A stretch of DNA of 64,000 nucleotides from Christiangramia crocea (GTDB taxonomy: Bacteria > Bacteroidota > Bacteroidia > Flavobacteriales > Flavobacteriaceae): the NCBI RefSeq assembly GCF_022410465.1, contig NZ_JAJSON010000025.1:248001-312000 (forward strand), read 5' to 3'. The notes below the pieces were generated by a model that saw nothing but the letters and a program-made list of their open reading frames with translations, made no database searches and was not told where the DNA came from. Made by a program: the position numbers and the translations under genes. This document shows positions 20,816 through 51,424 of the stretch, in pieces; within the stretch, counting starts at the first letter, position 1; each line of letters begins with the position of its first letter.

Positions 20816-21736
20816 TTAAAAATTATCGGCATCCTTGTAAGCATTAATAACTGCAAAGGCACCTTCTTCACCAATTATAGAGTTTCCATGTTCCATCCCG
20901 ACAAGCCCATTGAAACCCTTACTGTAAATATGCTTGAAAATATTTCTATAGTTAATTTCTCCGGTTCCAGGTTCGTTCCTACCGGGATTGTCCCCTACCT
21001 GAAAATAAGCAATTTCATCCCAGCATTTATCAATATTCGGAATAAGGTTACCTTCCTGGATTTGTTGATGGTAAATATCAAATAATATTTTACAGGAGGG
21101 ACTGTCGACTGCTTTGCAAATCTGGTATGCTTGCGGACTTTCATTTAAAAACATGCCTGGATGATCCCTGAAATTTAATGGCTCAAGTACCATAATCAGG
21201 TTATGCGGCTCTATAATTTCCGAAGCAGCTTTCAAAGATTCTACAACATTTGCCGTTTGGTATTCAAATGCTAGCTTAGGATCTATAGCGCCGGGAACGA
21301 CTGTCATCCATTTGGCTCCAAGTCTTTTCGCTACTTGAATTGAAGATTTAATTTCATCCAGAAATTCTTCACGTTTTTCTTTATTACCACTAGCCAAGTT
21401 GGGCTCTTTCCAGCCAATAGTATGGGCCACAAAAACACCCATGATCATGTTATTTGTTTTTAGGGTTTCTGCTATTTCATTCTGAAGGTCGACATCACGA
21501 TCTTTCATATTGTTATCCTCAAAAGCTGTAAATCCCTGAGACGCCATAAACTGAAGCTGGTCAATGGGATTATCACCGACAACACTTTTAAACATTTCCA
21601 AATGTGGAGCATAGTGAAGATTAAAAATCTGTTCTTTAATGTTTATTATCTCTTTAGCTTCACTATAAAAACCGCCTCCCAGTATGAGGCCGGAGCCGGC
21701 AGCGATAGTTTTTTTAAAAAAAGATCTTCTTTGCAT
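20816..21736 (-). CDS. Tat-exported hydroxypyruvate-isomerase-like TIM barrel
   Basis: 306 residues. The N-terminus MQRRSFFKKTIAAGSGLILGG is a twin-arginine signal peptide (RRSFFKK). The rest is an AP-endonuclease-2/sugar isomerase TIM barrel of the Hyi type: FNLHYAPHLEMF, VVPGAIDP, LVLEPLN-like MVLEPLNFRDHPG with the metal Glu, FDIYHQQIQEGN, QVGDNPGRNEPGTGEINY and a late GMEHGNS. It may isomerise hydroxypyruvate/tartronate semialdehyde or another keto-sugar; export to the periplasm suggests a sugar substrate. It is the first gene of the accessory block. Confidence 0.82.
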   Translation of the reverse strand: MQRRSFFKKTIAAGSGLILGGGFYSEAKEIINIKEQIFNLHYAPHLEMFKSVVGDNPIDQLQFMASQGFTAFEDNNMKDRDVDLQNEIAETLKTNNMIMGVFVAHTIGWKEPNLASGNKEKREEFLDEIKSSIQVAKRLGAKWMTVVPGAIDPKLAFEYQTANVVESLKAASEIIEPHNLIMVLEPLNFRDHPGMFLNESPQAYQICKAVDSPSCKILFDIYHQQIQEGNLIPNIDKCWDEIAYFQVGDNPGRNEPGTGEINYRNIFKHIYSKGFNGLVGMEHGNSIIGEEGAFAVINAYKDADNF

Positions 21737-22079
21737 AAGAAAAAATTAAGATTATAAGTGACTATTTGCTCAGGCTCAACCTCATTAAATTTTAATAAAA
21801 GAAGTTGAAGAGGTGAGAAAATATTAATTGAGACCATTCATTTACCAAGTTAAACTTTATCTATCCATACTTATTATAGAAAAGAATATAATGAATTACT
21901 GACTAAATCGTTAACCAAAAAGTCAAAACCGAACTACTAGCAATTCTTGGTTCTTTTATAAAGCATTAGATACATACCTTCGAAATTTCATCTTATTATA
22001 ACTGTAAAAATTTGAATGATTAATTTCTAATTTAAAATTAGTTGGATCATTTAGTTCATGAGGGGATATATAATTCAAT
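21737..22079 (-). other. AT-rich gap with no recognisable gene
   Basis: 343 bases. Short frames here start or end without family signatures. The left part is the promoter side of the Tat isomerase gene. The right part follows the decayed phosphatase. I see no RNA or repeat structure. Confidence 0.5.
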
Positions 22080-22834
22080 TTAAATGGCAGGTCCTGCAAA
22101 ATCAAAACTGCCATCTTCAAAATTATCAACTCCATACTGAATAAAAGAACCAAGATATTGATCCCCGGCAATATGGAAGGCCATTGCTTTGCGTATTATT
22201 TCTACAGCCTTGTCCCTTTTTAGTTTTGGCCAACCATTAGAATCCATATCTACTGTTGGTCTGTCCCCCTTAATATATTCTCCCCTTGCAGGAATTTTTA
22301 GCCCAGGAATGACACTACCATCTTTAGATCCTTTAGGTAATGTCGCTACGGTAGCGAAATTGGTCTGTGATAATACAGCTTTCATTAGAGTTTCCTCCTC
22401 CCAGTCTTCAACCCAGTGTTCTAGAAACTCCTCCTGTCTTACACCCAGAAGATCAGCTTTCACGTGTTAATATTTCTTTATATCGAAATCTTCGTTATTG
22501 ATCCATCCATTATGGACTTCAGCTTCTGCCGGCCGGACATGTTTAGGAGCGGATTTGAATTTTCGATTTTCTAGTATAGCAAAACTTATTACAGCATAAT
22601 TCCATTTCGTATAATAAACGCCAATATTGTTTTTTCAGGCGTTGGATCATATGGATTTGGAAAATGGCTTGTCTGGGTAAATTGAACCATGTTCACCCAT
22701 TCTGGATTCATTTTATACCCACCGCTATCCTGAGCGTAGGCTCCAAAACCTTTGGAAACATCTGCTTTTTTGCCCTTTTCTCCCCACGAATTTCCGTAAT
22801 ATACATCGTGATCATCGGGAATTATCGCACAGGG
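22080..22834 (-). pseudogene. Decayed PhoD-like alkaline phosphatase/phosphodiesterase
   Basis: Joining frames on the minus strand gives a recognisable PhoD-type metallophosphatase: IPDDHDVYYGNSWGE (from about 22834), DSGGYKMNPEWVNMVQFTQTSH, then after a frameshift at a six-T run (22630-22635) NYAVISFAILENRKFKSAPK up to an in-frame TAA (22467-22469). It then continues as KADLLGVRQEEFLEHW and QTNFATVATLPKG to FAGPAI. The amino-terminal domain and the C-terminal end are missing, and the metal motif AGDQH reads AGDQY. The last open part (22080-22463, GTG start, 127 codons) could be mistaken for a gene. Bases 22835-23066 to its right hold nothing I recognise. Confidence 0.85.
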
Positions 22835-23066
22835 AATCTATCTCATAATCAGTGGTTCCTCCACCAGGAAGGTTTCATGCACTTTACGAATTTTGAACTC
22901 ACTATTTACTTCTAAAATAAATGGAACGGTGCCCCCAGAAAACTGTAAAATTTATTGAAAAATATACTGGCAATGGAAAAGAAATTGTCATCGAAGGTAA
23001 ACTTGTTTACTTTAAATATTTTAGAATTTTCACATAGAATTGAGTTATTAACGACTAATAAAATAC

Positions 23067-26000
23067 TTATTTTTTTTGAATGGTTTTTTTATATTTCGAG
23101 GGTAGGCATCCGAATTGTTTTTTAAAAGATTCACGAAAATATTTATAATCATTAAAACCAACCTCTAAAGCAACTTGTGATAATTTAAGATTTTTACTTA
23201 ATATTATTTCTGCTGCATTTTTCAAGCGAATAGATCGAATGAATCCAGTTAATGATAAACCTGTTAAGGATTTAATTTTTCGGTAAAGAGTAGATTGGCT
23301 CATACAAAGTTCATCCATAAGGGTTTCTATTAAATTATCATCTAAAAGATTTTCTTCTATAAGCTTTACCGCCTTAGCTATAAATATACTTTCTGCATCC
23401 TCGGAGTTAATTTCATTTTTTGATGGCTCAAAACGAACTTTATTCAAAAAATATTTTCGTAATTTTTGTCTATTGTGCAATACAGTTGCTATGCGAGCTT
23501 TGATAATCTTAGGTGCGAAAGGTTTAGTTATAAAGTCATCTGCCCCCGTATTAAGACCTTTGATCTCATAAATATTTGAACTTCGTGCAGTTAATAGTAT
23601 TACTGGGATATGCGAAGTCCCGATCTGTTTTTTTAATTCCTTACATACAGTTAAACCATCTTTACCAGGCATCATGATATCACAGAGTATAAGATCTGGT
23701 ACATGTTCGGAAGCTAATTCTATTCCCTTATCGCCATTTTCTGCTTCAATTAACTCATAATGGTTACCAAGCAAAGACCTTAAATATTTTCTGATATCGG
23801 CATTATCATCAATTATTAAAATAGTATTCTCATGAACCTTCTTGTCGGGATCTAATGAAATACTTCCTTTGGATAATTCTTTATAAGTATCAACACTTTT
23901 TGCATTTCCCGCTCGGTTGTTTTTTAAATAATTTTTAATTTCTTCTGCATAAGGAAGTTTGATATTAAAGTGAGAACCTTTATTAATTTTACTTTCAACT
24001 GTGATATGCCCCTTATGTAATTCAATAATTTTTTTAGAAAAGGTCAGCCCAATTCCACTTCCTATAACATGAGCAGTATTGGTATTTTTTATTTGGTAGA
24101 ATCTATCAAAAATTTTTTGCTGATCTTCTGGTGCTATGCCAATTCCATTATCTTCAATGGACAATAAGCAATAATCTTTCTTCTCTATAATTTTAAAAAT
24201 AATACGTCCACCAGGTTTAGTATATTTTAGGGCATTAGAAATCAAATTACAAATTACAATTTCCATTTTACTATGATCAAAAGATAAATTAATTAGGTCC
24301 CTATCACTTTCAAATCGATAATCTATATTCTTATTAAAAGCCTGCTCCTTGAAATACATAAAAACTTCCAATGAAAATTTGACAATATTTCCCTTTGAAG
24401 CATTCAATTTTAATATCCCATGCTGAGCTTTTCTAAAATCAATCAATTCATTTGTCAATTTCAGCATGCGATTAGCATTTTTTTCTACAGTTATTAATTT
24501 TTCTCTAATTTCTCCATTCAATTTTTCTGAACCTAAAATCTCTTTTAAAGGTCCTAAAACTAGTGTTAAAGGTGTTCGGAATTCATGAGAAATATTTGTA
24601 AAAAAAGTTAGTTTCGCTTCATTAAGATCATTTTCCTTTTCCTGAGTTATTTCTGATAATTCTAATTTATGGCGGAAATGTCTTTGTCTTAGATAAACCA
24701 AAATGAAACTAAGGAATATTAATATAAAAAGAATCACATATATTAGGTATGCCAAGGGGCTCAACCATGGTGCATGGAGTACGTTAATCTCAAGTGATTT
24801 TGGGTCTGACCACTGTTTATAATCCTTGGACGAACTTACCTGAAATTCATAATTTCCAGGAGCCAGCCCCACGAAGTTGACATTCTTCTGATTTTTAATA
24901 TAATTCCAATCCTTTTGATATCCCAATAATCTGTACCGGTAACTTATAGTTTCCTGATCTGAAAAATTATTATTTATAAACCCAATACTGAAGGATTTCT
25001 CCCTGTGTGTTAACTCAATCTTATCTGCATAACCAATATTTTTATTCAGCAACACCCGTCCATTAATAGAATCATACGCATTTATCCTCCTATTATTCAC
25101 CTTCAAAGCAGTAAAAATAAGTTCATGAGGATTTTGTTTATCCTCTATATCATCAGGATTAAAGTAAGTAAGATTATCAATCCCCCCAACATAAATCATG
25201 GATTTATTCTTTCCCTCATAGATACTTCTCAAATTAAATATAGAAGTCGCTATTCCATCTTCTTCTCCATAATTAATAAGGGATTCCTTTGTTGGATTTA
25301 AATTTACCAGATTCGTTGAAGTGCTTATCCATAAATTATTATTTCTATCTGAAGAGATTCCACAAATGAAATCGTTGATAAGCCCATTAACGACAGTATA
25401 GGTTTTTTCAACCTCCAGAATCTCGTTCTTGAATTTTAATTTATATAGACCATTAGGTGTTCCTAACCATATAAACCCTGAATTGGCATATATACAGTTT
25501 ATGATTTGGGGAATTCTTGTATCCATAAATTTTGTATGATGAACAAAGTTTTTAGTATTCCTATCATACAAATGCAAGCCATTATAAGTCCCAACCCACA
25601 AATTGCCAACCGCATCATATGCCATAGAGGTTATACGATTGCTTTCAAGCTTTTGTTCTTCGCCACGAAGCCTATAGTGTTTAACGATCTTGGGAGCCTT
25701 AAAATTCGAAACATTAATTAAATACAGCCCATTATGCTGGGTCCCTATCCATAAGTATTCATCATTTTCCGAAAGAAAAAAAGTTGGTTTAGATATATCC
25801 AGCTTACTTATCTCATTCTGATTTTTATCCATAAATACAGTAGAAGCTGAAGTCCCGAATACTATTACGTCATTATGCTCATATATCCTAAAAACTTTTT
25901 GATCATTTTCAATATTTACTTGTTGCAGGGAGTTTAACTTCGCACCAAAAAATAAACCGCTTCTTAAAGTCCCGAGATAAATTCCATTCTCATTTTTATA

Positions 26001-27071
26001 AACGGAATTTACATTTAGCTCTTTAGTCAACACTGGATTATCAAGAGTACTTGTTATATTTTTAAAGCCCTGGTTTTGCATAAGTTTGACACCTCCATTA
26101 CTGGAAGAAATCCAGAGTACATTATTTTTATCACTATGAATATCGAGGATAATATCATATTTGTACCCCTCTTTCTCTCTTTGGGGAAGAACCAGATCTT
26201 GTTTATAAAACTTTTTTAAATTCTTACTGCTGTAATAAAGGCCAGAACCCCATGTTCCTACCCAAAGCCTATCATCTTGGTCTAAATAAAGTGAAGTTGC
26301 ATAATTTGACGAAATATTCGTGGTAACAGTGCTTAACTTTTCATTTTCTAAATCAAAACGACTTAAATTTAAGTTACCATTCTTTTCCTGATCAATAGTA
26401 CTTATCCACAAGCAGTTACGGGAAATATCCTTTATTAATGTAGTAATATAATTATCTAAAGTATAGGTGAAAATTGAGTCTGAGGAGGTGTCAATTTTAA
26501 TTAACTTATTTTGCGAACCAATCCATACTATATCTTTTTCATCTGCTATAATACTTTTCGCTCTGAGCGATTTAAACCGATTTACAACTTTTTTTTGAGA
26601 ATCATTTAAAACGAAAACCCCATTGTCCTGACTTCCTATCCAAATATTTCCTTTCTTATCTTCAGTTATAACTCGAATTCTTAAGGCGCCCTGTATATCC
26701 TCATCAAGTATATAGTTATAATTAGTTAGTTTATTAGTTTCTATTTCAAGTTTGGAAAGTCCGCCACTTTTTGTCCCAATCCATAAATTATTTTTACTGT
26801 CAATATATAATGTTTCAATATTTTCGTTCCGTAGACCAGGATACTCTTCTCCCGGTTTTATTGCGGTGTAATTCAGGCCATCATACTTCGTGATACCATT
26901 TTCAGTAGCAATCCACTTAACATTTAACGAATCACTAACTATTTTAGTTACGTAGTTATGGGAAAGGCCTTCTTTTTGAGAAATATAATCGTATACAAAT
27001 CCACCATTGGATTTTTGTGCGCTAACAGTTGAAAATATTATCAAAAGAATATTAAATAAATACTTTCTCAT
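23067..27071 (-). CDS. Hybrid two-component system regulator (HTCS) of the PUL
   Basis: 1334 residues. After a signal peptide (1-18) come two seven-bladed reg_prop beta-propellers with repeated W-GT-GL motifs (about 25-690), a Y_Y_Y domain (about 705-765), one membrane helix (about 767-797), HisKA with the phospho-His near residue 828 in ISHEFRTP, a HATPase (DNGIGI, GSGIGLTFSKKI), a receiver domain with the phospho-Asp near 1129 in LCDIMMPGKDG, and a C-terminal AraC-type HTH (about 1240-1330). It is thus an outer sensor and a DNA-binding regulator in one chain. Such proteins sense oligosaccharides in the periplasm and switch on the linked PUL. It is encoded just downstream of the SusCD/sulfatase unit. 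Confidence 0.95.
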   Translation of the reverse strand: MRKYLFNILLIIFSTVSAQKSNGGFVYDYISQKEGLSHNYVTKIVSDSLNVKWIATENGITKYDGLNYTAIKPGEEYPGLRNENIETLYIDSKNNLWIGTKSGGLSKLEIETNKLTNYNYILDEDIQGALRIRVITEDKKGNIWIGSQDNGVFVLNDSQKKVVNRFKSLRAKSIIADEKDIVWIGSQNKLIKIDTSSDSIFTYTLDNYITTLIKDISRNCLWISTIDQEKNGNLNLSRFDLENEKLSTVTTNISSNYATSLYLDQDDRLWVGTWGSGLYYSSKNLKKFYKQDLVLPQREKEGYKYDIILDIHSDKNNVLWISSSNGGVKLMQNQGFKNITSTLDNPVLTKELNVNSVYKNENGIYLGTLRSGLFFGAKLNSLQQVNIENDQKVFRIYEHNDVIVFGTSASTVFMDKNQNEISKLDISKPTFFLSENDEYLWIGTQHNGLYLINVSNFKAPKIVKHYRLRGEEQKLESNRITSMAYDAVGNLWVGTYNGLHLYDRNTKNFVHHTKFMDTRIPQIINCIYANSGFIWLGTPNGLYKLKFKNEILEVEKTYTVVNGLINDFICGISSDRNNNLWISTSTNLVNLNPTKESLINYGEEDGIATSIFNLRSIYEGKNKSMIYVGGIDNLTYFNPDDIEDKQNPHELIFTALKVNNRRINAYDSINGRVLLNKNIGYADKIELTHREKSFSIGFINNNFSDQETISYRYRLLGYQKDWNYIKNQKNVNFVGLAPGNYEFQVSSSKDYKQWSDPKSLEINVLHAPWLSPLAYLIYVILFILIFLSFILVYLRQRHFRHKLELSEITQEKENDLNEAKLTFFTNISHEFRTPLTLVLGPLKEILGSEKLNGEIREKLITVEKNANRMLKLTNELIDFRKAQHGILKLNASKGNIVKFSLEVFMYFKEQAFNKNIDYRFESDRDLINLSFDHSKMEIVICNLISNALKYTKPGGRIIFKIIEKKDYCLLSIEDNGIGIAPEDQQKIFDRFYQIKNTNTAHVIGSGIGLTFSKKIIELHKGHITVESKINKGSHFNIKLPYAEEIKNYLKNNRAGNAKSVDTYKELSKGSISLDPDKKVHENTILIIDDNADIRKYLRSLLGNHYELIEAENGDKGIELASEHVPDLILCDIMMPGKDGLTVCKELKKQIGTSHIPVILLTARSSNIYEIKGLNTGADDFITKPFAPKIIKARIATVLHNRQKLRKYFLNKVRFEPSKNEINSEDAESIFIAKAVKLIEENLLDDNLIETLMDELCMSQSTLYRKIKSLTGLSLTGFIRSIRLKNAAEIILSKNLKLSQVALEVGFNDYKYFRESFKKQFGCLPSKYKKTIQKK

Positions 27072-38567: not shown

Positions 38568-38634
38568 CTAATTTATATATATGTTAAAAAAATTAGCATT
38601 ACAGATAATTCAGAATAAAGGGGTATATGGTCAA
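38568..38634 (-). promoter_or_regulatory. PUL operator-promoter P3 (SGBP-SusC-SusD unit)
   Basis: On the minus strand TTGACC-ATAT-ACCCCT occupies 38634-38619. Exactly 43 bases later comes TAAATTAG (38575-38568), a -7-like element. The SGBP ATG follows at 38517. The same layout occurs at four other units of the locus. Confidence 0.72.
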
Positions 38635-38639
38635 AAACT

Positions 38640-38653
38640 CCCATTTTAATGGG
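38640..38653. repeat. Palindrome CCCATT-TT-AATGGG
   Basis: Perfect 6-2-6 inverted repeat, five bases outside the P3 operator (on its upstream side). It could be a second protein site. It is not seen beside the other operators. Confidence 0.5.
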
Positions 38654-39022
38654 TTTTGTAGACTTATTGAGAATAACTTAAACAAATTATAAGAAAATGA
38701 CCTTTAATAAGAGATCATTAAATTTTTTCATTTTATTTCGCAATAATTAAATAAAAGCTTACTATTTGTTAGAATATGTAATTTCAAATACTCAAAACAG
38801 ATTCTAATTATAAGACATAATATTACAGTGGAACAAGTGTAAATTTTTAAAGAAATTGCTATTAGAATATAGAGGTATCTTCTGGGAAAATTTTCTGAAA
38901 ACCAAATGAAAAGAAATTCCTGAAACTTTAAATTCCGAATTTGTTTTAACTTATTAAAAATGGAAATAAGAATTAACCCTAGCAAAACATATTATAGCAG
39001 ATCAGGAAAAAGTAAAAATTGA
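38654..39022. other. AT-rich gap, no gene seen
   Basis: About 370 bases between the palindrome next to P3 and the end of the GH2 gene. Very AT-rich, without a supported coding frame, RNA fold or clear terminator. Confidence 0.5.
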
Positions 39023-41494
39023 TTATTCAGAAATGATCTCCACAGAGGCCAGATTTAAACCATTAGATTTTGCAGTTACTTTAATTTCTCCAGCCATATC
39101 TTTCTTGGATCGGATTACTAAAAGACACAGGCCATTAAAGGCTCTCCGATTATCTGCCTGAAAGGAAGTTATGGAAGTAGGATCTCCATTTCCAACGGCC
39201 TCTATAATGGCAGGTCCGGATACTTCAAATTCCACAAGATTGTCTGCAGTAGGACAAAAATTTCCATTTTTATCCTCTATTTGAACTTTTATGAATGACA
39301 GATCTTCCCCATCCGCATCAATGAAACTTCTATCTGGACTTAATTTTATCTGTGCAGGTTTTCCAGCTGTAATAATTGATTTGGTTGCCTTAACCTTCCC
39401 ATTTGAATAGGCAACCACTTTGAGCTTACCGGGCTGATATGGAACTTCCCAGTTTAAACGATATGGTGAGTCCCATGTCTTTTCAGGTTGCTTCCACCAC
39501 TTAAAGTCAGCAGGAATTGTAGTTTTATCCACTCCCATTTTCTTTTTACCCAATGATTCACCATTAAGAAATAGCTCTGCTTCTTCACAATTTGTATAGC
39601 AATATACAGGGATTGTAGTATTCTTCTCAACATCCCAGTTCCAGTGAGGCAGTATATGCACCATTGGTTCATCAGTCCAAATGCTTTGATAAAAATAAAA
39701 TCTATCCTTTTTAAACCCTGCAAGATCCAGCATTCCAAAATAAGAACTTCTCGACGGCCAATCGCCACCCCACTTTCCGTGAGTTTCGTTATCCCGTCCA
39801 TTAAAAGGTGTTGGCTCTCCAAGATAATCAAAACCAGTCCAAACGAATTGACCTAATGACCGGGGATTCATTTCCTGAGCATAAACTTCAAAATCAGGTG
39901 GGTAAGCCCAAGGTGGACTTATGATATCATAACTTGATATTTGTAAGGAAGGATGTTTTTCATAATTTTCTACCGGTAAATGATAAATTCCACGGGAACT
40001 CACACAGGATGACGTTTCAGAACCGTAAATGATCCAGTCTGGATGTTCCTCTAATATCTCATCATACTGCGTAGGCTTGTAATTAAAGCCTTGAATATCC
40101 AGTGGATCTGCGAGTCCATTCTTTATGGCTTGTAAATGTTTGCTTAGCCCTGCAGTTACAGGTCGAGTTGGATCCATTTCATGACAAATCCCAGTTAAGA
40201 TTTTAGCGAGTTCACCACCCTTTGGAGAAGTTTGCTCTTTTACCTCATTGCCGATGCTCCACATCACAACAGACGGATGGTTACGATCTCTTTTAATCAT
40301 ATCTCGCAGATCGGTTTGAAACCATTTGTCCCAATGCTTAGAATAATCATTTTTGGTTTTTGGTGCTGCCCAACCATCGAAAGCTTCTACCTGAACCAAA
40401 ATTCCCATTCTATCGCACAAATCTAGCTGCTCTGGCGAAGGCGGGTTATGGGCGGTTCTTATGGCATTTACTCCCATAGATTTTAATAATTCTAATTGTC
40501 TCTGGGTGGCCCTGTAATTTACGGCAGCTCCAAGGGGACCTAGATCGTGATGCATACAAACACCTTTAAATTTTAGCTGCTTTCCATTTAAGAGAAAACC
40601 TTCCGTATTGCTATATTCAATACTTCTAACCCCAAAATCTGTAGAATAAGTATCTATAACTTTACCATTTTTCTTTAAAAATGAGATGGCGGTATACAAA
40701 TATGGATTATCCAGATCCCATTTAATTGGATTATCCATTACCATATCCTGGGCAACTTCAACACTTGTATTAGCAGATAATTCTATTTTGGAGAAATTAC
40801 TCACAACTTCAGCCCCATGAGTATTAATTATACTGGTCTTAAGCTCAAATTCACCCGGGCTATTTGTGGTATTGTTTAAAATGGTTTGAATATTTATCTC
40901 AGCCTTATTCTCCGTAATTTTGGGGGTTGTAATGTAAGTTCCCCTATGAGCAACATGCACGGGGTTTTTAATTTTTAACCATACATTTCGGTAGATACCT
41001 GCTCCTGGATACCATCTGGCGGCAAGATCCTCGGGGTTAACTTTAACCGCAATAATGTTTTCTTCACCAAACTTGATGTGGGAGGTGAGATCTACTTCAA
41101 ATCCTATATAGCCATAAGGTCTGCCTCCAACTTTATGCCCATTTATCCAAACAGTAGAATTATTCATAACTCCGTCGAATTCAACGATAACCTTTCTTCC
41201 CTTATGTTTGGCATCAATGACAAAATGTTTGCGATACCATGCTGTTCCTGAAATGGGGAGTCCGCCGGTACGGGTGTCATGAATGGAGTCAAAGGGACCC
41301 TCAATTGCCCAGTCATGAGGCAAATTAAGTTGCCTCCAGTTCTTATCAGGAAAGTCCTCACTTTGGGCCCTACCCTGTACAGCCTTTTGGAATAACCAGC
41401 CGTCGTTGAATTTATGGGTATTTTTATCTATAGACTGAGCTTCCCCATAGTAGAAGGCAAGTAAAAAAACCGGAAGCAATAATCTTATTTTCAT
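39023..41494 (-). CDS. GH2 glycosidase with DUF4982 (exo-beta-galactosidase-like)
   Basis: 823 residues with a signal peptide (1-19). The GH2 sugar-binding domain begins at WLFQKAV and contains NLPHDWAIEGPF, followed by an immunoglobulin-like domain and the catalytic barrel (about 295-600). The acid/base Glu is in MWSIGNEVKEQ (about 416) and the nucleophile Glu is in IYGSETSS (about 493). A DUF4982-type domain follows, with NCEEAELFLNGESLGKK. GSETSS-type GH2 enzymes are commonly beta-galactosidases of marine galactan loci. It is transcribed with the sulfatase six bases upstream, implying desulfation then removal of a terminal sugar. Confidence 0.9.
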   Translation of the reverse strand: MKIRLLLPVFLLAFYYGEAQSIDKNTHKFNDGWLFQKAVQGRAQSEDFPDKNWRQLNLPHDWAIEGPFDSIHDTRTGGLPISGTAWYRKHFVIDAKHKGRKVIVEFDGVMNNSTVWINGHKVGGRPYGYIGFEVDLTSHIKFGEENIIAVKVNPEDLAARWYPGAGIYRNVWLKIKNPVHVAHRGTYITTPKITENKAEINIQTILNNTTNSPGEFELKTSIINTHGAEVVSNFSKIELSANTSVEVAQDMVMDNPIKWDLDNPYLYTAISFLKKNGKVIDTYSTDFGVRSIEYSNTEGFLLNGKQLKFKGVCMHHDLGPLGAAVNYRATQRQLELLKSMGVNAIRTAHNPPSPEQLDLCDRMGILVQVEAFDGWAAPKTKNDYSKHWDKWFQTDLRDMIKRDRNHPSVVMWSIGNEVKEQTSPKGGELAKILTGICHEMDPTRPVTAGLSKHLQAIKNGLADPLDIQGFNYKPTQYDEILEEHPDWIIYGSETSSCVSSRGIYHLPVENYEKHPSLQISSYDIISPPWAYPPDFEVYAQEMNPRSLGQFVWTGFDYLGEPTPFNGRDNETHGKWGGDWPSRSSYFGMLDLAGFKKDRFYFYQSIWTDEPMVHILPHWNWDVEKNTTIPVYCYTNCEEAELFLNGESLGKKKMGVDKTTIPADFKWWKQPEKTWDSPYRLNWEVPYQPGKLKVVAYSNGKVKATKSIITAGKPAQIKLSPDRSFIDADGEDLSFIKVQIEDKNGNFCPTADNLVEFEVSGPAIIEAVGNGDPTSITSFQADNRRAFNGLCLLVIRSKKDMAGEIKVTAKSNGLNLASVEIISE

Positions 41495-41500
41495 TCTATA

Positions 41501-43093
41501 CTAGTTAGTTGTTAATTCTTTTTCAGAAGTTGAACGATGGTCTTTGGATCTGATTTCGTCTAATTTCTCCTGAAGTGCGTTAACCATATTTGGGTTAGCT
41601 GCAGCGATATTTCTTTTCTCACCAGGATCTTTAGCCAGGTCATATAACTGAGGATCATGACTGGTTCCACCTTCAATTTTCTTTTTGGCCATTATGAATT
41701 TGGGTTCCTTTTGCCCCTTGGAAAGCGGCTCAATATATTTGAACTTACCTTTTCTTATAGCTAGAACCGAAGCTTCTTCAATTAAATATTCTGTACCTTT
41801 TTCCTGTGCAGATAGTAGTGCTTTGGAAATGTCCTGGCTGTCTATAGCTTCATCTTTCGATAGGTCTGAACCTATGATTGAAGCTATACTAGCATATAAA
41901 TCTACCTGACTCCATAATGCTTCACTAACACCGGGTTGAATTTTTCCTTCCCAGTAAACAATCGTGGGAACGCGTGTACCTGCTTCAAAAATACTGTATT
42001 TCCCACCTCTAAAACCACCGGCAGGATCATGGTCTCCAAGCTTTTCAACTGCACTATCTTCATATCCATCATTAAGTACAGGACCGTTATCGCTGGTAAA
42101 GATCACAAGGGTATTTTCTAATAAATCCCTTTCTTTAAGAGCCTCCATAACTTTACCAGTCATCCAGTCCATCTGTACTATAGCGTCTCCCCGAACCCCC
42201 ATATTGGTCTTTCCTTTGAACATCTCATGAGGTAACCGAGGTACATGAATATCGTGAAATGAAAAGAATAAAAAGAAAGGATTTTTTTTGGCTGAATCCA
42301 TAAATTCTACCGCTTTATTTGTCATTACAAATGGAAAATTCTCATCCTTCCATAAAGCGCTTTCACCTCCGTCCATATAACCTATTCTACTTACACCATT
42401 TACAATTGTCATATTATGTTGTGAGTCTGCAGAATACCTAAGCAATTCAGGATTTTCGTAGCCGGTGGGCATATCGCCTATCTTCTTGTTTTTATAACTA
42501 ACTACAATAGGATCGTCATGTTCTTTCAGGTTAATAACTCTATGGTTTTCAACATAAACTGCAGGCACCCTGTCTCCAGTCGCAGGAATAAGAAATGAAT
42601 AGTCAAATCCAACTTCTAGTGGTCCAGGTTTTATATCTTGATTCCAATTAACATTACCGTTTCCAAGACCCAGATGCCATTTTCCAACCACGCCGGTTTT
42701 ATATCCACATTCACTAAGCATACTGGCTATGGTAGGCGTTTTTTCGTCAATGAGTAAAGGTGCATCTCCTGGGAGAACACTCGCATTCTTTCTAAAGGCA
42801 TGTTGACCCGTTAATAAGCTATATCTAGAAGGTGTACAAGTAGACGCTGTACTATGTGCATCTGTGAACCTGATTCCGTTCGCCGCTAATCCATCTACAT
42901 TTGGGGTATTTACACTTTCCGAACCATAAGAACTTAAATCTCCGTATCCAAGATCATCAACATAGAAAATTATGATATTTGGTTTTGCTGGTTTTTCCGG
43001 ATCTACAGGTTTGAATGACATTAATGAAAAACAGATCGTAAATACCATCCCAAAAGTAAGGGACATGTTTTTTATATTAAGATTATTACTCAT
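41501..43093 (-). CDS. S1 sulfatase, arylsulfatase type, exported
   Basis: 530 residues with an N-terminal hydrophobic segment (about 10-28). Metal DD in FYVDDLGYGD (46-47), maturation motif CTPSR (Cys86), GKWHLGLG, FFSFHDIHVPRLPHE and FTSDNGPVLNDGYEDSA are intact, the classic arylsulfatase A type. First gene of a two-gene unit with the GH2 at 39023, preceded by its own operator P2. The 209-base gap upstream holds that promoter. Confidence 0.93.
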   Translation of the reverse strand: MSNNLNIKNMSLTFGMVFTICFSLMSFKPVDPEKPAKPNIIIFYVDDLGYGDLSSYGSESVNTPNVDGLAANGIRFTDAHSTASTCTPSRYSLLTGQHAFRKNASVLPGDAPLLIDEKTPTIASMLSECGYKTGVVGKWHLGLGNGNVNWNQDIKPGPLEVGFDYSFLIPATGDRVPAVYVENHRVINLKEHDDPIVVSYKNKKIGDMPTGYENPELLRYSADSQHNMTIVNGVSRIGYMDGGESALWKDENFPFVMTNKAVEFMDSAKKNPFFLFFSFHDIHVPRLPHEMFKGKTNMGVRGDAIVQMDWMTGKVMEALKERDLLENTLVIFTSDNGPVLNDGYEDSAVEKLGDHDPAGGFRGGKYSIFEAGTRVPTIVYWEGKIQPGVSEALWSQVDLYASIASIIGSDLSKDEAIDSQDISKALLSAQEKGTEYLIEEASVLAIRKGKFKYIEPLSKGQKEPKFIMAKKKIEGGTSHDPQLYDLAKDPGEKRNIAAANPNMVNALQEKLDEIRSKDHRSTSEKELTTN

Positions 43094-43130
43094 GGCTTAA
43101 TACTTTTTATATTATTGCAGATATTTATAT

Positions 43131-43198
43131 CAATTTATTTTCCCCGAGATTACAAAGTAACCAACTACTACTTTAGTTTATGGGGTCATATATTGCAA
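43131..43198 (-). promoter_or_regulatory. PUL operator-promoter P2 (sulfatase-GH2 unit)
   Basis: Minus strand: TTG (43198-43196), then ACCCCA (43186-43181) and, 43 bases later, TAAATTG (43137-43131). The left half of the motif is less conserved here (TTGCAA-TATATG), and the -7 box is one base short. The position and spacing still match the other four sites. The ATG follows at 43093. Confidence 0.55.
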
Positions 43199-43302
43199 TG
43201 AACAGGACAAGCCCACCTATATAAGCACTTTTCGGTAATTATTTGGAGATTAATATTGATATGACTAGAGTATTTCAGTAGACATTCTCATAAAAGAACA
43301 GA

Positions 43303-44805
43303 TTACATTCCTTCCAAAATTTCTTCTGAAACTCCTATGTTTCTATCTCGTAATGGCGATGATTTTTTCAGTAAAAAGTTTTTCAAAATCTCAAATCCAT
43401 CTCCTCTAGAATGTGCATTTAAAATTTCGGGTTTTTTGAAAACAGCTTTAGGATCCTTTGGCAAACCCTCAATCTTCCCATAATAGACATTATTTTCAAA
43501 TCGGGTTTTTTTATCCTTTCCAAATTTGAATTCAAAAGCCTCATTACCTACATAGAAAATATTATTCTTGACCAGGGTATTTTTCGGCCAAGGACCTCCC
43601 CAATTATCCATTTTCACTATAGTACGACCCAAATTACCAAATCGTTTTTGGGGAACAATTATGATATTATTATATATCTTGGTATTCTTCACAGGACCGG
43701 TAATATGAAATATCGGTGAAAAAACACCCCTCCTTTCTGTAGGGTACGGCCGGATGCCATCATTAACACTAATATTGTGCCTCACTACAGTTCCCGCATT
43801 CCCAATATTTTTTGAGGTTCCATAACTATCACCATTGTTGCAAATAAGTAAAAAACCGCCGTAATTATCATGACTATAATTGTATTGAATAATTGTTCCA
43901 AGACAATTCCAGTCCGAGTCGTAAGCCTGTCCATCCCATTTAGCTTTATGACCGCTAACCTCATTAAATTGAATTAGGGTATTATCTGAACTCCATGGCC
44001 AAATTCCCGCTGCAGCTTCACTATGTGGGAGCACATCTAGGAAATCCCGCAATATATTGCCTTCAATTAAGGCTCCCTCACATCCAACGGGAACGATCCC
44101 ATCCCCAGGCACTCTTTCAATCAAGTTATCTCTAATTATTACACCAATACTCGGATGCCAATTCTCCCTATCTGTATACCCCCTGGAATTGATAGCATTT
44201 CTCGCGCTATCATGTATATATGAATTTTGTATGATCAGGTTCACAAATCGGGTTTTAACCCTATCTCCCGAATTCTTCCAAATTATGGCACTACCTCCGC
44301 CCTGCTTTTTATTCAAACTTCCATTAACCCGATGTATCTCCAAATTGTCCAGCACAATATGGTGGCAATCTCCAAAATTCTCTGCTTCGATGGTCACGCC
44401 TCGTCTACCAGCTTTGCTCTCTTTACCCTCATTGGTGATTTCTAAATTTCTTATTTCCCAATATTCCACATTATAGAGGAATAGAGTGTAATCTTTTTTA
44501 CCTTCTCCATGTATGGCCGGCTTATCGCCCTCCCCATAGCTATCTATGATTATAGGATTATTTTCACTTCCGCTGCCCTTAACCCGGAGCTGTCCAAAAT
44601 AGCTGGTTCCTGCTTTAAAAAGTATTTTATCACCAGGTTTAAAACTTATTTTGTTCAAATTCTCGAGTGAACTCCAGGCATTTCCAGGTGAATTACCCGA
44701 ATTGGAGTCTTTTCCCGTTTCGCTATCTACATAATAAATTTTTGCAAAAATTGATGTCGAAAAGAAAAAATAGAGTATTAGTATTGCTGAAATTGTATTT
44801 TTCAT
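43303..44805 (-). CDS. Secreted right-handed parallel beta-helix protein (paralogue A)
   Basis: 500 residues with a signal peptide (1-21). YYVDSETGKDSNSGNSPGNAWSSL begins the fold; then come many short turns typical of parallel beta-helices (HHIVLDNLEIHRVNG, VIIRDNLIERVPGDGI, TIIQYNYSHDNYGGF, VRHNISVNDG). Beta-helix proteins of this style include glycoside hydrolases (such as GH110 or GH141) and polysaccharide lyases (such as PL6). I cannot place it by eye. It shares WNC or FNC, then QYN, N-GGF and NISVNDG or NVSINDG with the beta-helix at 48075. It is co-transcribed downstream of a LacZ-type GH2, 14 bases away. Confidence 0.85.
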   Translation of the reverse strand: MKNTISAILILYFFFSTSIFAKIYYVDSETGKDSNSGNSPGNAWSSLENLNKISFKPGDKILFKAGTSYFGQLRVKGSGSENNPIIIDSYGEGDKPAIHGEGKKDYTLFLYNVEYWEIRNLEITNEGKESKAGRRGVTIEAENFGDCHHIVLDNLEIHRVNGSLNKKQGGGSAIIWKNSGDRVKTRFVNLIIQNSYIHDSARNAINSRGYTDRENWHPSIGVIIRDNLIERVPGDGIVPVGCEGALIEGNILRDFLDVLPHSEAAAGIWPWSSDNTLIQFNEVSGHKAKWDGQAYDSDWNCLGTIIQYNYSHDNYGGFLLICNNGDSYGTSKNIGNAGTVVRHNISVNDGIRPYPTERRGVFSPIFHITGPVKNTKIYNNIIIVPQKRFGNLGRTIVKMDNWGGPWPKNTLVKNNIFYVGNEAFEFKFGKDKKTRFENNVYYGKIEGLPKDPKAVFKKPEILNAHSRGDGFEILKNFLLKKSSPLRDRNIGVSEEILEGM

Positions 44806-44819
44806 TCTAATATTTCTTG

Positions 44820-48029
<3,210 letters not shown>

Positions 48030-48074
48030 CTAATCCCTATTCTACTTCAGATTCATTTATTTAGGCTCTCTGTG

Positions 48075-49712
48075 CTAATTATTAATTTCAATGGCACCTA
48101 AATCTGGTTGGCTTTTGATTTCATTACCAAGAATATCCACTTTCACCTTCATGCCGTACTTTAAACCGTCTGGATCATTTAGAAGCTTAGGAATAGAGAT
48201 TCCTTTGTTCCTTATTAAGGCAGTATTAGTAGGCACAAAATCTTCAATATTTTCACCATTTTTATTTTTAAAGGCTGGGGTTCCATATATTGGTTGGGTA
48301 TCTCGAATCTGAATTTCAGAGGGCCAATTCTCAGGTTTCAGAAACAAATTCCTCTTAAATATTATATCTCCAGTAAACTTCCCTCCAGTTTTTTCTGGGC
48401 GATATTGATCACCCTTAACAAGGGATGAAGGCCCTTCTATATAAAAGATGTTATTTGCTATCAATATTCCATTGGAAGCTTTGTCTATTGCTATTTTAGC
48501 TTCGATCCCTTTTTTTAAATAGATCGTGTTATTATAGAAATAGGTATTAAAGGGCCCTTTTCTTTTTCTATCCTTTCCATTAAATCCACTCAACCAAAAT
48601 GTTTTACCCTCCTGGAATGCTCCATTTTTACCTTTTATTCTATAACCATCATTTATACTTACATTATATCTATAGGAACAGTTATAATTATTACCCAATA
48701 TTTCACAGAAACCTCCTGCATTGTTACGGCTTAGGTTGTATTGCACGACTACATCTCTACAATTAAAATCTATATGTATGCCAGCAGAATCTCCCGGACC
48801 CCTTGCATTTAAAAATTGATTCTTTTCTATCAAAATTCCTGTACAGCCCCATGTCCAAAGTCCACTGCCTCTCCCCCACTTCCTGGGATCGTTCCCAGAA
48901 CCTGACCTGTCAATTTTATTTTTATAAACATGGCCATTATTAGCTGAACCTATCTGAATTCCTGGCCCTCCTGTATTAAAAACTATATTATTAAAAACTT
49001 TAAAATCCCGAATCCCCCCGTTTCTCCTAGAGGTAAACTTCAAACCGGTGTGCCCTACATTACTAATACTGGAATTCAAAACTTTAACATCTCTTATCAA
49101 TGCTTTTTCTGAGGTATTAATAAATCTTATCCCGTAACCGTATCCCTGAGTACCATTAGCAGAGTATACTTCAGATTCAGGTCTTTTATAACCGAGGTTT
49201 TCGTAAAATATGTCTGAAATATCCACATCGGAAATTTCTATATTTTCAGAAATTATATCTCCGCTGGTTCTCACCAGGATACCGCATCTCATTCCTTTAC
49301 CTGTATTTTGAATAGATTTCCTTCCTCCATTAGCTCTTATTTCCAGATTTGAAATGCGAATATGGCTGGAGTTTTCAATCAGGATGCCATTATTAAAATC
49401 TGCCGCGTTAATTATGGCTTTTTTACTTTTCGCCCTCCCATCTTTATATGATCTTATCACAATTGGCTTCTCTGAATCTCCATATATATTTTTTAAAATC
49501 AATGAGCCTTTGATCTCAATTCCCGCAGCGAGGTTAATAGTATCACCTGGTTCTAATTTGATTCTACTAAAATTGGAAAAAGATTTCCATGCTTCAGTTT
49601 TATGAAGTCCGGAATTTGTATCAGATCCCTTTTCCGCATTAACGTAAAATGTTTTGGAATAGGAAAAGTTGCAAAAAAAAATAAAAATGAAAGAGAGAAT
49701 TTTTAACTCCAT
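48075..49712 (-). CDS. Secreted right-handed parallel beta-helix protein (paralogue B)
   Basis: 545 residues with a signal peptide (1-19). FYVNAEKGSDTNSGLHKTEAWKSF opens the beta-helix. Repeated coil motifs include IRISNLEIRANGG, FKVFNNIVFNTGGPGIQIG, VVVQYNLSRNNAGGF and YRYNVSINDGYR. It shows obvious common ancestry with the protein at 43303, and both are transcribed with the LacZ-type GH2 between them. The catalytic type is unknown; glycoside hydrolase or lyase are both possible. It is the first gene after operator P1. Confidence 0.85.
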   Translation of the reverse strand: MELKILSFIFIFFCNFSYSKTFYVNAEKGSDTNSGLHKTEAWKSFSNFSRIKLEPGDTINLAAGIEIKGSLILKNIYGDSEKPIVIRSYKDGRAKSKKAIINAADFNNGILIENSSHIRISNLEIRANGGRKSIQNTGKGMRCGILVRTSGDIISENIEISDVDISDIFYENLGYKRPESEVYSANGTQGYGYGIRFINTSEKALIRDVKVLNSSISNVGHTGLKFTSRRNGGIRDFKVFNNIVFNTGGPGIQIGSANNGHVYKNKIDRSGSGNDPRKWGRGSGLWTWGCTGILIEKNQFLNARGPGDSAGIHIDFNCRDVVVQYNLSRNNAGGFCEILGNNYNCSYRYNVSINDGYRIKGKNGAFQEGKTFWLSGFNGKDRKRKGPFNTYFYNNTIYLKKGIEAKIAIDKASNGILIANNIFYIEGPSSLVKGDQYRPEKTGGKFTGDIIFKRNLFLKPENWPSEIQIRDTQPIYGTPAFKNKNGENIEDFVPTNTALIRNKGISIPKLLNDPDGLKYGMKVKVDILGNEIKSQPDLGAIEINN

Positions 49713-49734
49713 AATAATGCCATTAATTTTTACT

Positions 49735-49803
49735 CAATATTAAAAATCATATAAGCCACTGCAGGGGTAATATCAATTAATTAATGGTATTATTAGGTCA
49801 AAA
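49735..49803 (-). promoter_or_regulatory. PUL operator-promoter P1 (beta-helix-GH2 unit)
   Basis: Minus strand: TTGACC-TAATA-ATACCA, a diverged copy (49801-49785), then TAATATTG (49742-49735) after 42 bases; the ATG is at 49712. TGACCTAATAA here closely matches TGAACTAATAA in P5. A second motif-like sequence, TTGATATTACCCCT, lies between (49776-49763). Confidence 0.65.
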
Positions 49804-49874
49804 TCCACTATTATTAAGCAAAATGAAAAGTTTTCAGAGAGTTTTTACAGGTTTTGAGTGATTTCCCACATTAA

Positions 49875-49941
49875 TTGACCTTTTACCCCTAACGATTAAA
49901 GTGTTGATTAAATTCCAGCCGATTTAAATACTATATCTTTG
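49875..49941 (+). promoter_or_regulatory. PUL operator-promoter P4 (FGE gene)
   Basis: TTGACC-TTTT-ACCCCT at 49875-49890, then TATCTTTG (perfect TAnnTTTG) at 49934-49941 after 43 bases. There is no TTG at the -33 position, so the promoter probably needs an activator. Divergent to P1. Confidence 0.75.
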
Positions 49942-49973
49942 AGATATAATCATTTTAAAAGTTAAAAATCACC

Positions 49974-51086
49974 GTGAACCATAGAATAAATATTATCGCC
50001 CTGCTTATCCTTGGCATTATTTCCTGTAAAGAAAATAAGTCGAGACAAGTTCAGGTATTAAATTCTTCAGAAGAATCTACGGCCCAGATGGGCCTTATTG
50101 TTCAAGCTCCCGAAGATATTCAAACACCTAAAGGAATGGTTTGGATCCCGGGAGGTAAATTTACTCAAGGTGCAATTGAAGGAGACCAGATGGCGATGGA
50201 ACATGAAAAGCCAGCTCACCCAGTTGCAGTAGATGGATTCTTTATGGATATTACAGAAGTGACTAACGCCAATTTCAAAAAATTCGTAGATGAAACAGGA
50301 TATATCACACTAGCTGAACGGGATATTATTTGGGAGGAGATCAAAAAACAATTGCCTCCCAATACTTCGAAACCTCATGATTCTATCTTGCAGCCCGGTT
50401 CACTTACATTTAAAAAAACACAGAAGTCTGTCCCTAATTTGTATGACTATTCTCAATGGTGGAACTGGAAGGTTGGCGCAAATTGGAAGCATCCAAAAGG
50501 GCCCGGAAGTTCTATCGAAGGCAAAGAGGATCACCCTGTAGTCCATATTGCTTTGGAAGATGCTAAAGCCTATTGTAAATGGGCCGGTAGACGTTTACCC
50601 ACCGAAGCAGAATGGGAGTATGCTGCTCGTGGCGGACAAGAAGATGCTTTATTCAGCTGGGGAATGGATCATGGCAAATTATCAAAACAAGCGAACACCT
50701 GGGAAGGAGAATTTCCAACACAAAATACGGAACGGGATAATTTTGAATCCCGCGCACCGGTGCGATCTTATCCTCCAAATCCATATGGGTTGCACGATAT
50801 GGCCGGAAATGTATGGGAATTCACTCAGGACTGGTACAATGTAAATTATTATAAGAAACTGGATCGTCAAGGCTTGGTAAAAAATCCTAAAGGTGCAGAA
50901 CAAGCATTTAATCCCAATAATTCCTCCACACCGGAAGTAGTTATCAAAGGGGGGTCCTTTTTATGCAATGCGTCTTATTGCGCCAGTTATAGAATTTCAG
51001 CCCGAATGGGAAATTCTCTCGATTCTTCTCAGGAGCATCTGGGATTCCGCACTATAGCAACACCAGAAATGTTGAGATCAGAATAA
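49974..51086 (+). CDS. Lipoprotein formylglycine-generating enzyme (SUMF1/FGE family)
   Basis: 370 residues starting at GTG (49974); there is no in-frame ATG between P4 and this codon. A lipobox at Cys18 (LGIISC) makes it a membrane-anchored periplasmic or surface protein. The FGE-sulfatase domain spans about 50-365: GMVWIPGGKFTQG, AHPVAVDGFFMD, CKWAGRRLPTEAEWEYAARGG, and GLHDMAGNVWEF. Both catalytic copper cysteines are present (Cys331 and Cys336 in GGSFLCNASYC). It would oxidise the Cys of CxPSR in sulfatases to formylglycine, the step every sulfatase in this locus needs. It has its own promoter P4. Confidence 0.9.
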   Translation: MNHRINIIALLILGIISCKENKSRQVQVLNSSEESTAQMGLIVQAPEDIQTPKGMVWIPGGKFTQGAIEGDQMAMEHEKPAHPVAVDGFFMDITEVTNANFKKFVDETGYITLAERDIIWEEIKKQLPPNTSKPHDSILQPGSLTFKKTQKSVPNLYDYSQWWNWKVGANWKHPKGPGSSIEGKEDHPVVHIALEDAKAYCKWAGRRLPTEAEWEYAARGGQEDALFSWGMDHGKLSKQANTWEGEFPTQNTERDNFESRAPVRSYPPNPYGLHDMAGNVWEFTQDWYNVNYYKKLDRQGLVKNPKGAEQAFNPNNSSTPEVVIKGGSFLCNASYCASYRISARMGNSLDSSQEHLGFRTIATPEMLRSE

Positions 51087-51341
51087 TCTTAGAGTTATCA
51101 CTCTCTCACCAATTCTATCGAATCAAAATTCTGAACCTTTAGCAGGTGACTAAAAATTTACTATTTGAGACAGTTACCAAAATAATCCTTATACTCTTAG
51201 TATTACTTTTCTTTTTCAACTCAGATTTCAATTCTGAAATTCCGGGAAGATCGCCTTACGCTTTTTTGAATTTTTAAGTCAAAATAGAAATCGATGTTCA
51301 TCGAAAAATGCCTCTTCCCATTTAGTCTTAAACCTCAAAGC
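51087..51341. other. Intergenic gap before P5, no gene seen
   Basis: About 255 bases without a supported frame, RNA fold or terminator. It leads into the P5 region. Confidence 0.5.
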
Positions 51342-51424
51342 CTAATAATTAGCAATTATGAACTAATAACCCCTTATTCTAACTGATTACACCTTCGATA
51401 ATAAACATACTATTAATAAAATTG
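51342..51424 (+). promoter_or_regulatory. PUL operator-promoter P5 (sulfatase-GH2 unit)
   Basis: ATGAACTAAT-AACCCCT lies at 51358-51374, preceded 21 bases upstream by a direct CTAATAA repeat (51342-51348 and 51363-51369). TAAAATTG follows at 51417-51424, 42 bases after ACCCCT. A transcript start near 51431 excludes the in-frame ATG at 51426. Confidence 0.72.

Follow-up and report, generated by a model that had tools for sequence, protein, structure and literature searches.

Operators of HTCSs in Bacteroides were predicted by Ravcheev et al. (2013, PMC3878776) to be direct repeats with an average spacing of 21 bp, and binding of these regulators as head-to-tail dimers on one face of the DNA was proposed in the same work. 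The response-regulator parts of BT4663 and BT4124 were studied by EMSA on the bt4662 and bt4114 susCD promoters (PMC11253607). Primary-sigma promoters of Bacteroidota are described as carrying TAnnTTTG at -7 and TTTG near -33 (PMC7366714, PMC9723704); TAnnTTTG is the primary-sigma -7 consensus in Flavobacterium psychrophilum (PMC9723704), and no -33 element was found in Flavobacterium johnsoniae (PMC7366714). The operators discussed here are like those of Bacteroides in that two direct sites, 12 to 16 bp long in Bacteroides, are located upstream of the operons of HTCS-linked polysaccharide utilization loci (PULs). In contrast to that work, the lineages here are Flavobacteriia, Cytophagia, Saprospiria and Chitinophagia, and the likeness rests on architecture and spacing. 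Its sections on HTCS operators report no constant spacing between operator and -7 box (PMC3878776). As with BT4663 and BT4124, the promoters in question include those of susCD operons, but the HTCSs are different ones and binding is predicted here (PMC11253607).

The window, the whole stretch of 64,000 nucleotides that was analysed, comprises bases 248001-312000 of contig C17 in the 3.9-Mb genome of Christiangramia crocea. It harbours a sulfatase-rich PUL (PUL1) with genes for SusC, SusD, GH2 enzymes, beta-helix proteins and an HTCS. The transcription units, delimited tentatively from gene spacing, and the regulator gene are as follows:

49712 down to 43303, minus strand: P1 unit, beta-helix protein, GH2 and a second protein with weak beta-helix matches
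43093 down to 39023, minus strand: P2 unit, sulfatase and GH2
38517 down to about 27226, minus strand: P3 unit, weakly surface-glycan-binding-like protein, SusC, SusD and three sulfatases
49974-51086, plus strand: P4 gene, sulfatase-modifying-factor-like protein
51426 up to 62075, plus strand: P5 unit, five sulfatases and a LacZ-like GH2
23067-27071, minus strand: HTCS gene, 1334 aa, candidate activator

The HTCS possesses Reg_prop repeats, Y_Y_Y, HisKA and HATPase_c domains, a response regulator and an AraC-type HTH; sensor, kinase, receiver and AraC HTH are thus united in one protein, with susC and susD in the same locus. The proteins encoded by 48075-49712 and 43303-44805 show partial similarity to lacto-N-biosidase (by NCBIfam for both and by solved structures for 48075-49712), and they may serve the PUL by cleaving glycans. 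For the beta-helix protein 48075-49712, no close orthologue was present in 23 other genomes of the same genus, and therefore no footprint could be obtained within the genus. A second sulfatase PUL (PUL2, C17:311458-336160), with an HTCS of its own, lies at the end of the window and beyond.

A sequence-only reading of the window had described five sites, on both strands, each pairing a motif near TTGACC-N4-ACCCCT with a -7 box 42 or 43 bases further on. Every string that it quoted is present in the sequence, and the gaps are correct by its own way of counting; counted from one base later, the gap is 41 at P1 and 42 at P2. In the whole genome the exact motif has two occurrences, those of P3 and P4. 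When the printed consensus with three mismatches was tried as a site detector, 26 matches were obtained in the window against a mean of 40.9 in shuffled sequence, and it was rejected. The relaxed consensus does not exceed chance, so P1, P2 and P5 are not recognisable by it alone and needed independent evidence.

That evidence was sought in other genomes. Ten of 396 other genomes of the family sample encode a DNA-binding domain closely related to that of the HTCS (63-70% identity). Around PULs, 73 regions preceding probable unit starts were taken, five of them from PUL2 and none from the window, and the EM motif search was run on the 68 foreign regions from the ten other genomes, with the genome of C. 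crocea itself excluded. Seven regions (G411 C1:1337001-1377000, G343 C1, G185, G157, G172, G354 and G027) were left out of motif finding because a closely related HTCS is missing from the stretch; G261 C42, which has an unrelated HTCS, and one G269 region with a 32%-identical HTCS were kept. The search returned (TTGA-N3-ATTT-N2-CCC) x2, a direct repeat of two 16-bp half-sites with a 21-bp period. The TAnnTTTG box, which was not used in the search, is found at +21 or +22 in 25 of the 29 sites (27 foreign, two from PUL2) that score at least 13. When the de novo matrix was applied to the window, P4 ranked first, P1 second, P5 seventh, P3 tenth and P2 54th; the third rank belongs to a sixth operator that had escaped the sequence-only reading. 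The five sites of that reading are genuine without being the full set.

Of 25 foreign sites with at least 17 bits, 24 went into profile R1; the omitted one lies upstream of the G411 HTCS. Profile R2 and the composite matrix, which scores operator and box together, were derived from 84 sites, all from other organisms. The held-out sites in this set were picked with a box matching at least 5/6 fixed letters at +20 to +23 (63 sites, 61 without near-duplicates), so the composite matrix is tuned to the box; a foreign site that lacks a box, located before a GH2 gene in G092, was omitted from the 84. The operators in the window are:

49764-49801, minus strand: P1 operator, both halves clear, TTGACCTAATAATACC and TTAATTGATATTACCC, 21 bp apart; composite 26.6
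43182-43219, minus strand: P2 operator, strong downstream half TTGCAATATATGACCC and weak upstream half; composite 20.0, operator alone 14.3
38597-38634, minus strand: P3 operator, strong upstream half TTGACCATATACCCC and degenerate downstream half; composite 19.1, operator alone 11.6
49854-49891, plus strand: P4 operator, both halves clear, TTGAGTGATTTCCCAC and TTGACCTTTTACCCC; operator 25.5 bits, the best in the window
51358-51395, plus strand: P5 operator, both halves clear, ATGAACTAATAACCCC and CTAACTGATTACACCT; composite 22.4
22062-22099, minus strand: sixth operator, strong downstream half TTGAATTATATATCCC and weak upstream half; composite 26.7, the highest in the window

In the half-site scan, P1, P4 and P5 show both halves clearly, and P2, P3 and the sixth site each have a single strong one. 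The motif first described by eye marks real sites and corresponds to one half of the 21-bp direct repeat: at P1, P3 and P5 it coincides with the upstream half-site, at P2 and P4 with the downstream one. The distance of about 75-110 bases to a start codon ascribed to each site does not extend to P5, as the motif ends 71, 86, 101, 83 and 51 bases upstream at P1 to P5, respectively. The claim that every unit has a site fails at the HTCS gene, where the best upstream composite is -3.9; in the half-site and composite scans, no operator was detected upstream of the HTCS gene, at five starts inside units or at one neighbouring gene.

The -7 boxes belonging to these operators are:

49735-49742, minus strand: P1 box, TAATATTG at +21
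43153-43160, minus strand: preferred P2 box, TTACTTTG at +21
38568-38575, minus strand: P3 box, TAAATTAG at +21
49934-49941, plus strand: P4 box, TATCTTTG at +42, exceeding the rule by one 21-bp unit
51417-51424, plus strand: P5 box, TAAAATTG at +21
22033-22040, minus strand: possible box of the sixth site, TAATTTTA at +21

At P1, P2, P3 and P5 the best box anywhere within +10 to +65 is situated at exactly +21. For P2 this is the preferred box, with 5.7 bits, and TAAATTG, the box assigned previously (at +44, 1.8 bits), is probably wrong. The P4 box matches TAnnTTTG completely, and there is a single mismatch in each of the boxes of P1, P2, P3 and P5 and in the +21 box of the sixth site. The P5 box is located 9 bases before ATG 51426, the first ATG of the sulfatase frame; with so short a distance the start is probably further on, at the in-frame ATG 51450 or 51465. 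At the sixth site, TAAATTAG at +27 outscores TAATTTTA at +21, and the next gene, 20816-21736, begins about 300 bases on. Between that gene and the HTCS gene, 22080-22970 (minus strand) resembles a decayed gene, the end of which overlaps the sixth operator; no Pfam match was found for its 127-aa fragment 22080-22463. The account of the sites needs correction as to the shape of the motif, the P2 box, the P4 spacing and the presence of a site at every unit.

Since the genome scans with R1 and R2 are lossy (150 of 2964 and 150 of 3511 candidates scored, respectively), a full matrix scan of 428 kb of contig C17 with 853,052 background positions was added. Across the 64 kb the five highest composites belong to the sixth site, P1, P5, P2 and P3 (19.1-26.7 bits), and the highest background composite is 15.6, so that none equals P1, P2, P3 or P5. 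These four sites reach a composite of at least 15, as compared with none of the 298 further upstream regions scanned on the contig. P4 read in the regular register gives 12.4 bits and is equalled by seven background positions; judged on the operator alone, it is equalled by none, P2 by six and P3 by 20. Among the 32 matches listed from the R2 genome scan (150 of 3511 candidates scored), the PUL2 susC promoter comes first (E 2.6e-5), followed by P4 (E 0.0011) and the PUL2 sulfatase promoter (E 0.0014). The remaining E-values are singly weak (P2 0.09, the sixth site 0.38, P3 1.5, P1 4.1, P5 4.3) with other matches interspersed, and position 48598 on the plus strand, inside a gene, has an R2 score like those of the weaker sites. 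Eight of the 32 matches listed fall within 67 kb, or 1.7% of the genome, and it is from this clustering, not from individual E-values, that the genome scan derives its weight. In these scans the motif geometry was not found at many unrelated genes, in keeping with what the sequence-only reading had anticipated of a true regulatory element. Elsewhere on the contig, the intergenic segment C17:664854-664924 (L139) contains two TATACCCCC halves (19.0 bits) between a further HTCS-like gene and one for a SusC-like protein; as a guess, it could be an operator of the same class serving another HTCS.

These figures bear on the view that the sites are a chance resemblance of A+T-rich promoter regions without a common regulator. 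The failure of the relaxed consensus against shuffled sequence and the weakness of most sites when taken singly across the genome are what such a view would lead one to expect, but the empty count among the 298 upstream regions, the absence of any background position matching the four composites and the recovery of P1 to P5 with foreign training data make it scarcely credible. The held-out loci described below contradict it as well. A common cis-element at a fixed distance from the -7 box, with the linked HTCS as its candidate regulator, is the reading that the recovery by models trained without the organism's own genome supports.

A scan of public genomes, with the aligned domains as query, yielded 80 loci, of which ten are from the training genomes, 58 were held out (domain identity 54-69%) and 12 served as controls (42-48%, with two at 56% over a 78-residue segment). 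At a threshold of at least 20 bits, 57 operator matches were observed in 41 of the 58 held-out loci and none in the 12 controls; of the 57, 45 have a box with at least 5/6 fixed letters at +21 or +22, and each other offset accounts for three at most. At 17 bits or more, the held-out loci give 73 matches in 45 of 58, 57 of them with a box, and the controls one match without a box in one of 12. No match was seen in 17 of the 58 held-out loci at 20 bits and in 13 at 17 bits. Profile R1 reaches E<0.01 in 38 of the 58, the best control having E 0.3. The held-out loci include close relatives, which makes the counts non-independent. The domain resides in an open frame of at least 1000 aa in all 12 controls and in 55 of the 58 held-out loci. 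Loci with matches include those of Zobellia (Flavobacteriia), Algibacter, Leeuwenhoekiella, Aquimarina, Algoriphagus (Cytophagia), Belliella, Flavihumibacter (Chitinophagia) and Saprospiraceae MAGs (Saprospiria). In a further set of ten comparison genomes, which include G002 and G005 that may carry a close relative of the HTCS domain, R1 gives weak matches in six (E 0.05 to 2.8e-4), and its best values in the ten training genomes are E 4.6e-5 to 8.4e-9. The operator class is thus found upstream of PUL operons and is conserved together with similar HTCS DNA-binding domains.

The SGBP-SusC-SusD genes behind P3 have counterparts of 34-54% identity in two other genomes, located beside HTCSs of 29% and 32% identity; in one of these genomes (G269) a related HTCS lies about 60 kb away from the counterparts. 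No R2 match was found at the promoters of these counterpart SGBP-SusC-SusD genes, and the training sites at related HTCSs in these two genomes score as expected. By these sequence comparisons, the operator appears to go with the type of the HTCS DNA-binding domain. The sites could in principle be used by another activator, such as a stand-alone AraC-type or LacI-type regulator or an ECF sigma factor, the binding of the HTCS being a prediction. We regard this as quite improbable, because the sites track the similarity of the HTCS DNA-binding domain across four Bacteroidota classes, the period equals the average published for HTCS operators (PMC3878776) and the box belongs to the TAnnTTTG type of the primary sigma factor (PMC9723704).

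A rival nearer at hand is the regulator of PUL2. HTCS2 (C17:325624-329640) is a paralogue of the window HTCS, with 44% identity overall and 55% in the DNA-binding domain, and it may act on P1-P5 alone or together with the window HTCS, in which case PUL1 and PUL2 would form one cross-wired regulon. The model also fits the PUL2 operators, one of which gives its top match in the genome scan, and P1 and the PUL2 sulfatase operator have 29 of 38 bases in common. On the other hand, the window HTCS is the one located in PUL1, and its DNA-binding domain is closer to those of the ten operator-bearing genomes (63-70%, identities being for the window domain) than to that of HTCS2. We consider action of HTCS2 on P1-P5 unlikely, though far less so than the involvement of an unrelated activator; cross-regulation of PUL1 and PUL2 may nonetheless occur.

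With high confidence, we favour an HTCS as the activator that would switch on the five PUL units through a 21-bp direct-repeat operator at a fixed distance from the -7 box; the window HTCS is the candidate, and HTCS2 may act at some of the promoters. The repeat, its period, the fixed distance and its co-occurrence with this type of DNA-binding domain were computed directly. Evidence against this explanation includes the departure of P4 from the +21 rule, the single good half-site at P2 and at P3, the weak individual E-values of all sites but P4, the missing operator upstream of the HTCS gene, the weak R1 matches in comparison genomes and the held-out loci that gave no match. In the proposed mechanism, a sulfated glycan would be the signal, and the response-regulator/AraC part of the HTCS would bind as a head-to-tail dimer to the two 16-bp half-sites, which, being 21 bp or two helical turns apart and in the same orientation, would present themselves on one DNA face. 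The operator ends 21 bp before the primary-sigma -7 box and thereby has its downstream half at the position of a -33 element, where the HTCS dimer probably contacts RNA polymerase. The P4 operator stands exactly one 21-bp unit further upstream, on the same helical face.

From the downstream CCC of the operator it is about 23-25 bases to the TA of the -7 box, which puts this CCC near -33. These promoters are like other primary-sigma promoters of Bacteroidota in the type of the -7 box and unlike them in that no conserved -33 element is present: TTTG was not detected near -33, and between operator and box no base reaches 50% among the 61 sites. It is plausible that the activator replaces the -33 element. 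This can be put forward only as a proposal, because F. johnsoniae promoters are likewise without a recognisable -33 element (PMC7366714), and for the same reason its absence is not peculiar to the promoters described here.

Direct-repeat HTCS operators were already known, and the fixed operator-to-box distance is the addition made here; in the open-licence literature, no published report of such a distance was found. We tentatively suggest, at somewhat less than even confidence, that one HTCS lineage across Bacteroidota classes has its operator rigidly tied to the -7 box at exactly 21 bp and shifted by whole 21-bp units only. If so, the position of the promoter and its regulator could be deduced from the sequence itself, and one operator code would serve two neighbouring PULs whose HTCSs are paralogous. 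What began as a motif spotted by eye has become an operator-promoter model that is tested and portable and applies to a group of PUL regulators outside Bacteroides. With it, -7 boxes can be predicted at single-base precision and HTCS regulons proposed from sequence alone, and the fixed spacing offers a simple genetic handle on how HTCSs contact RNA polymerase.
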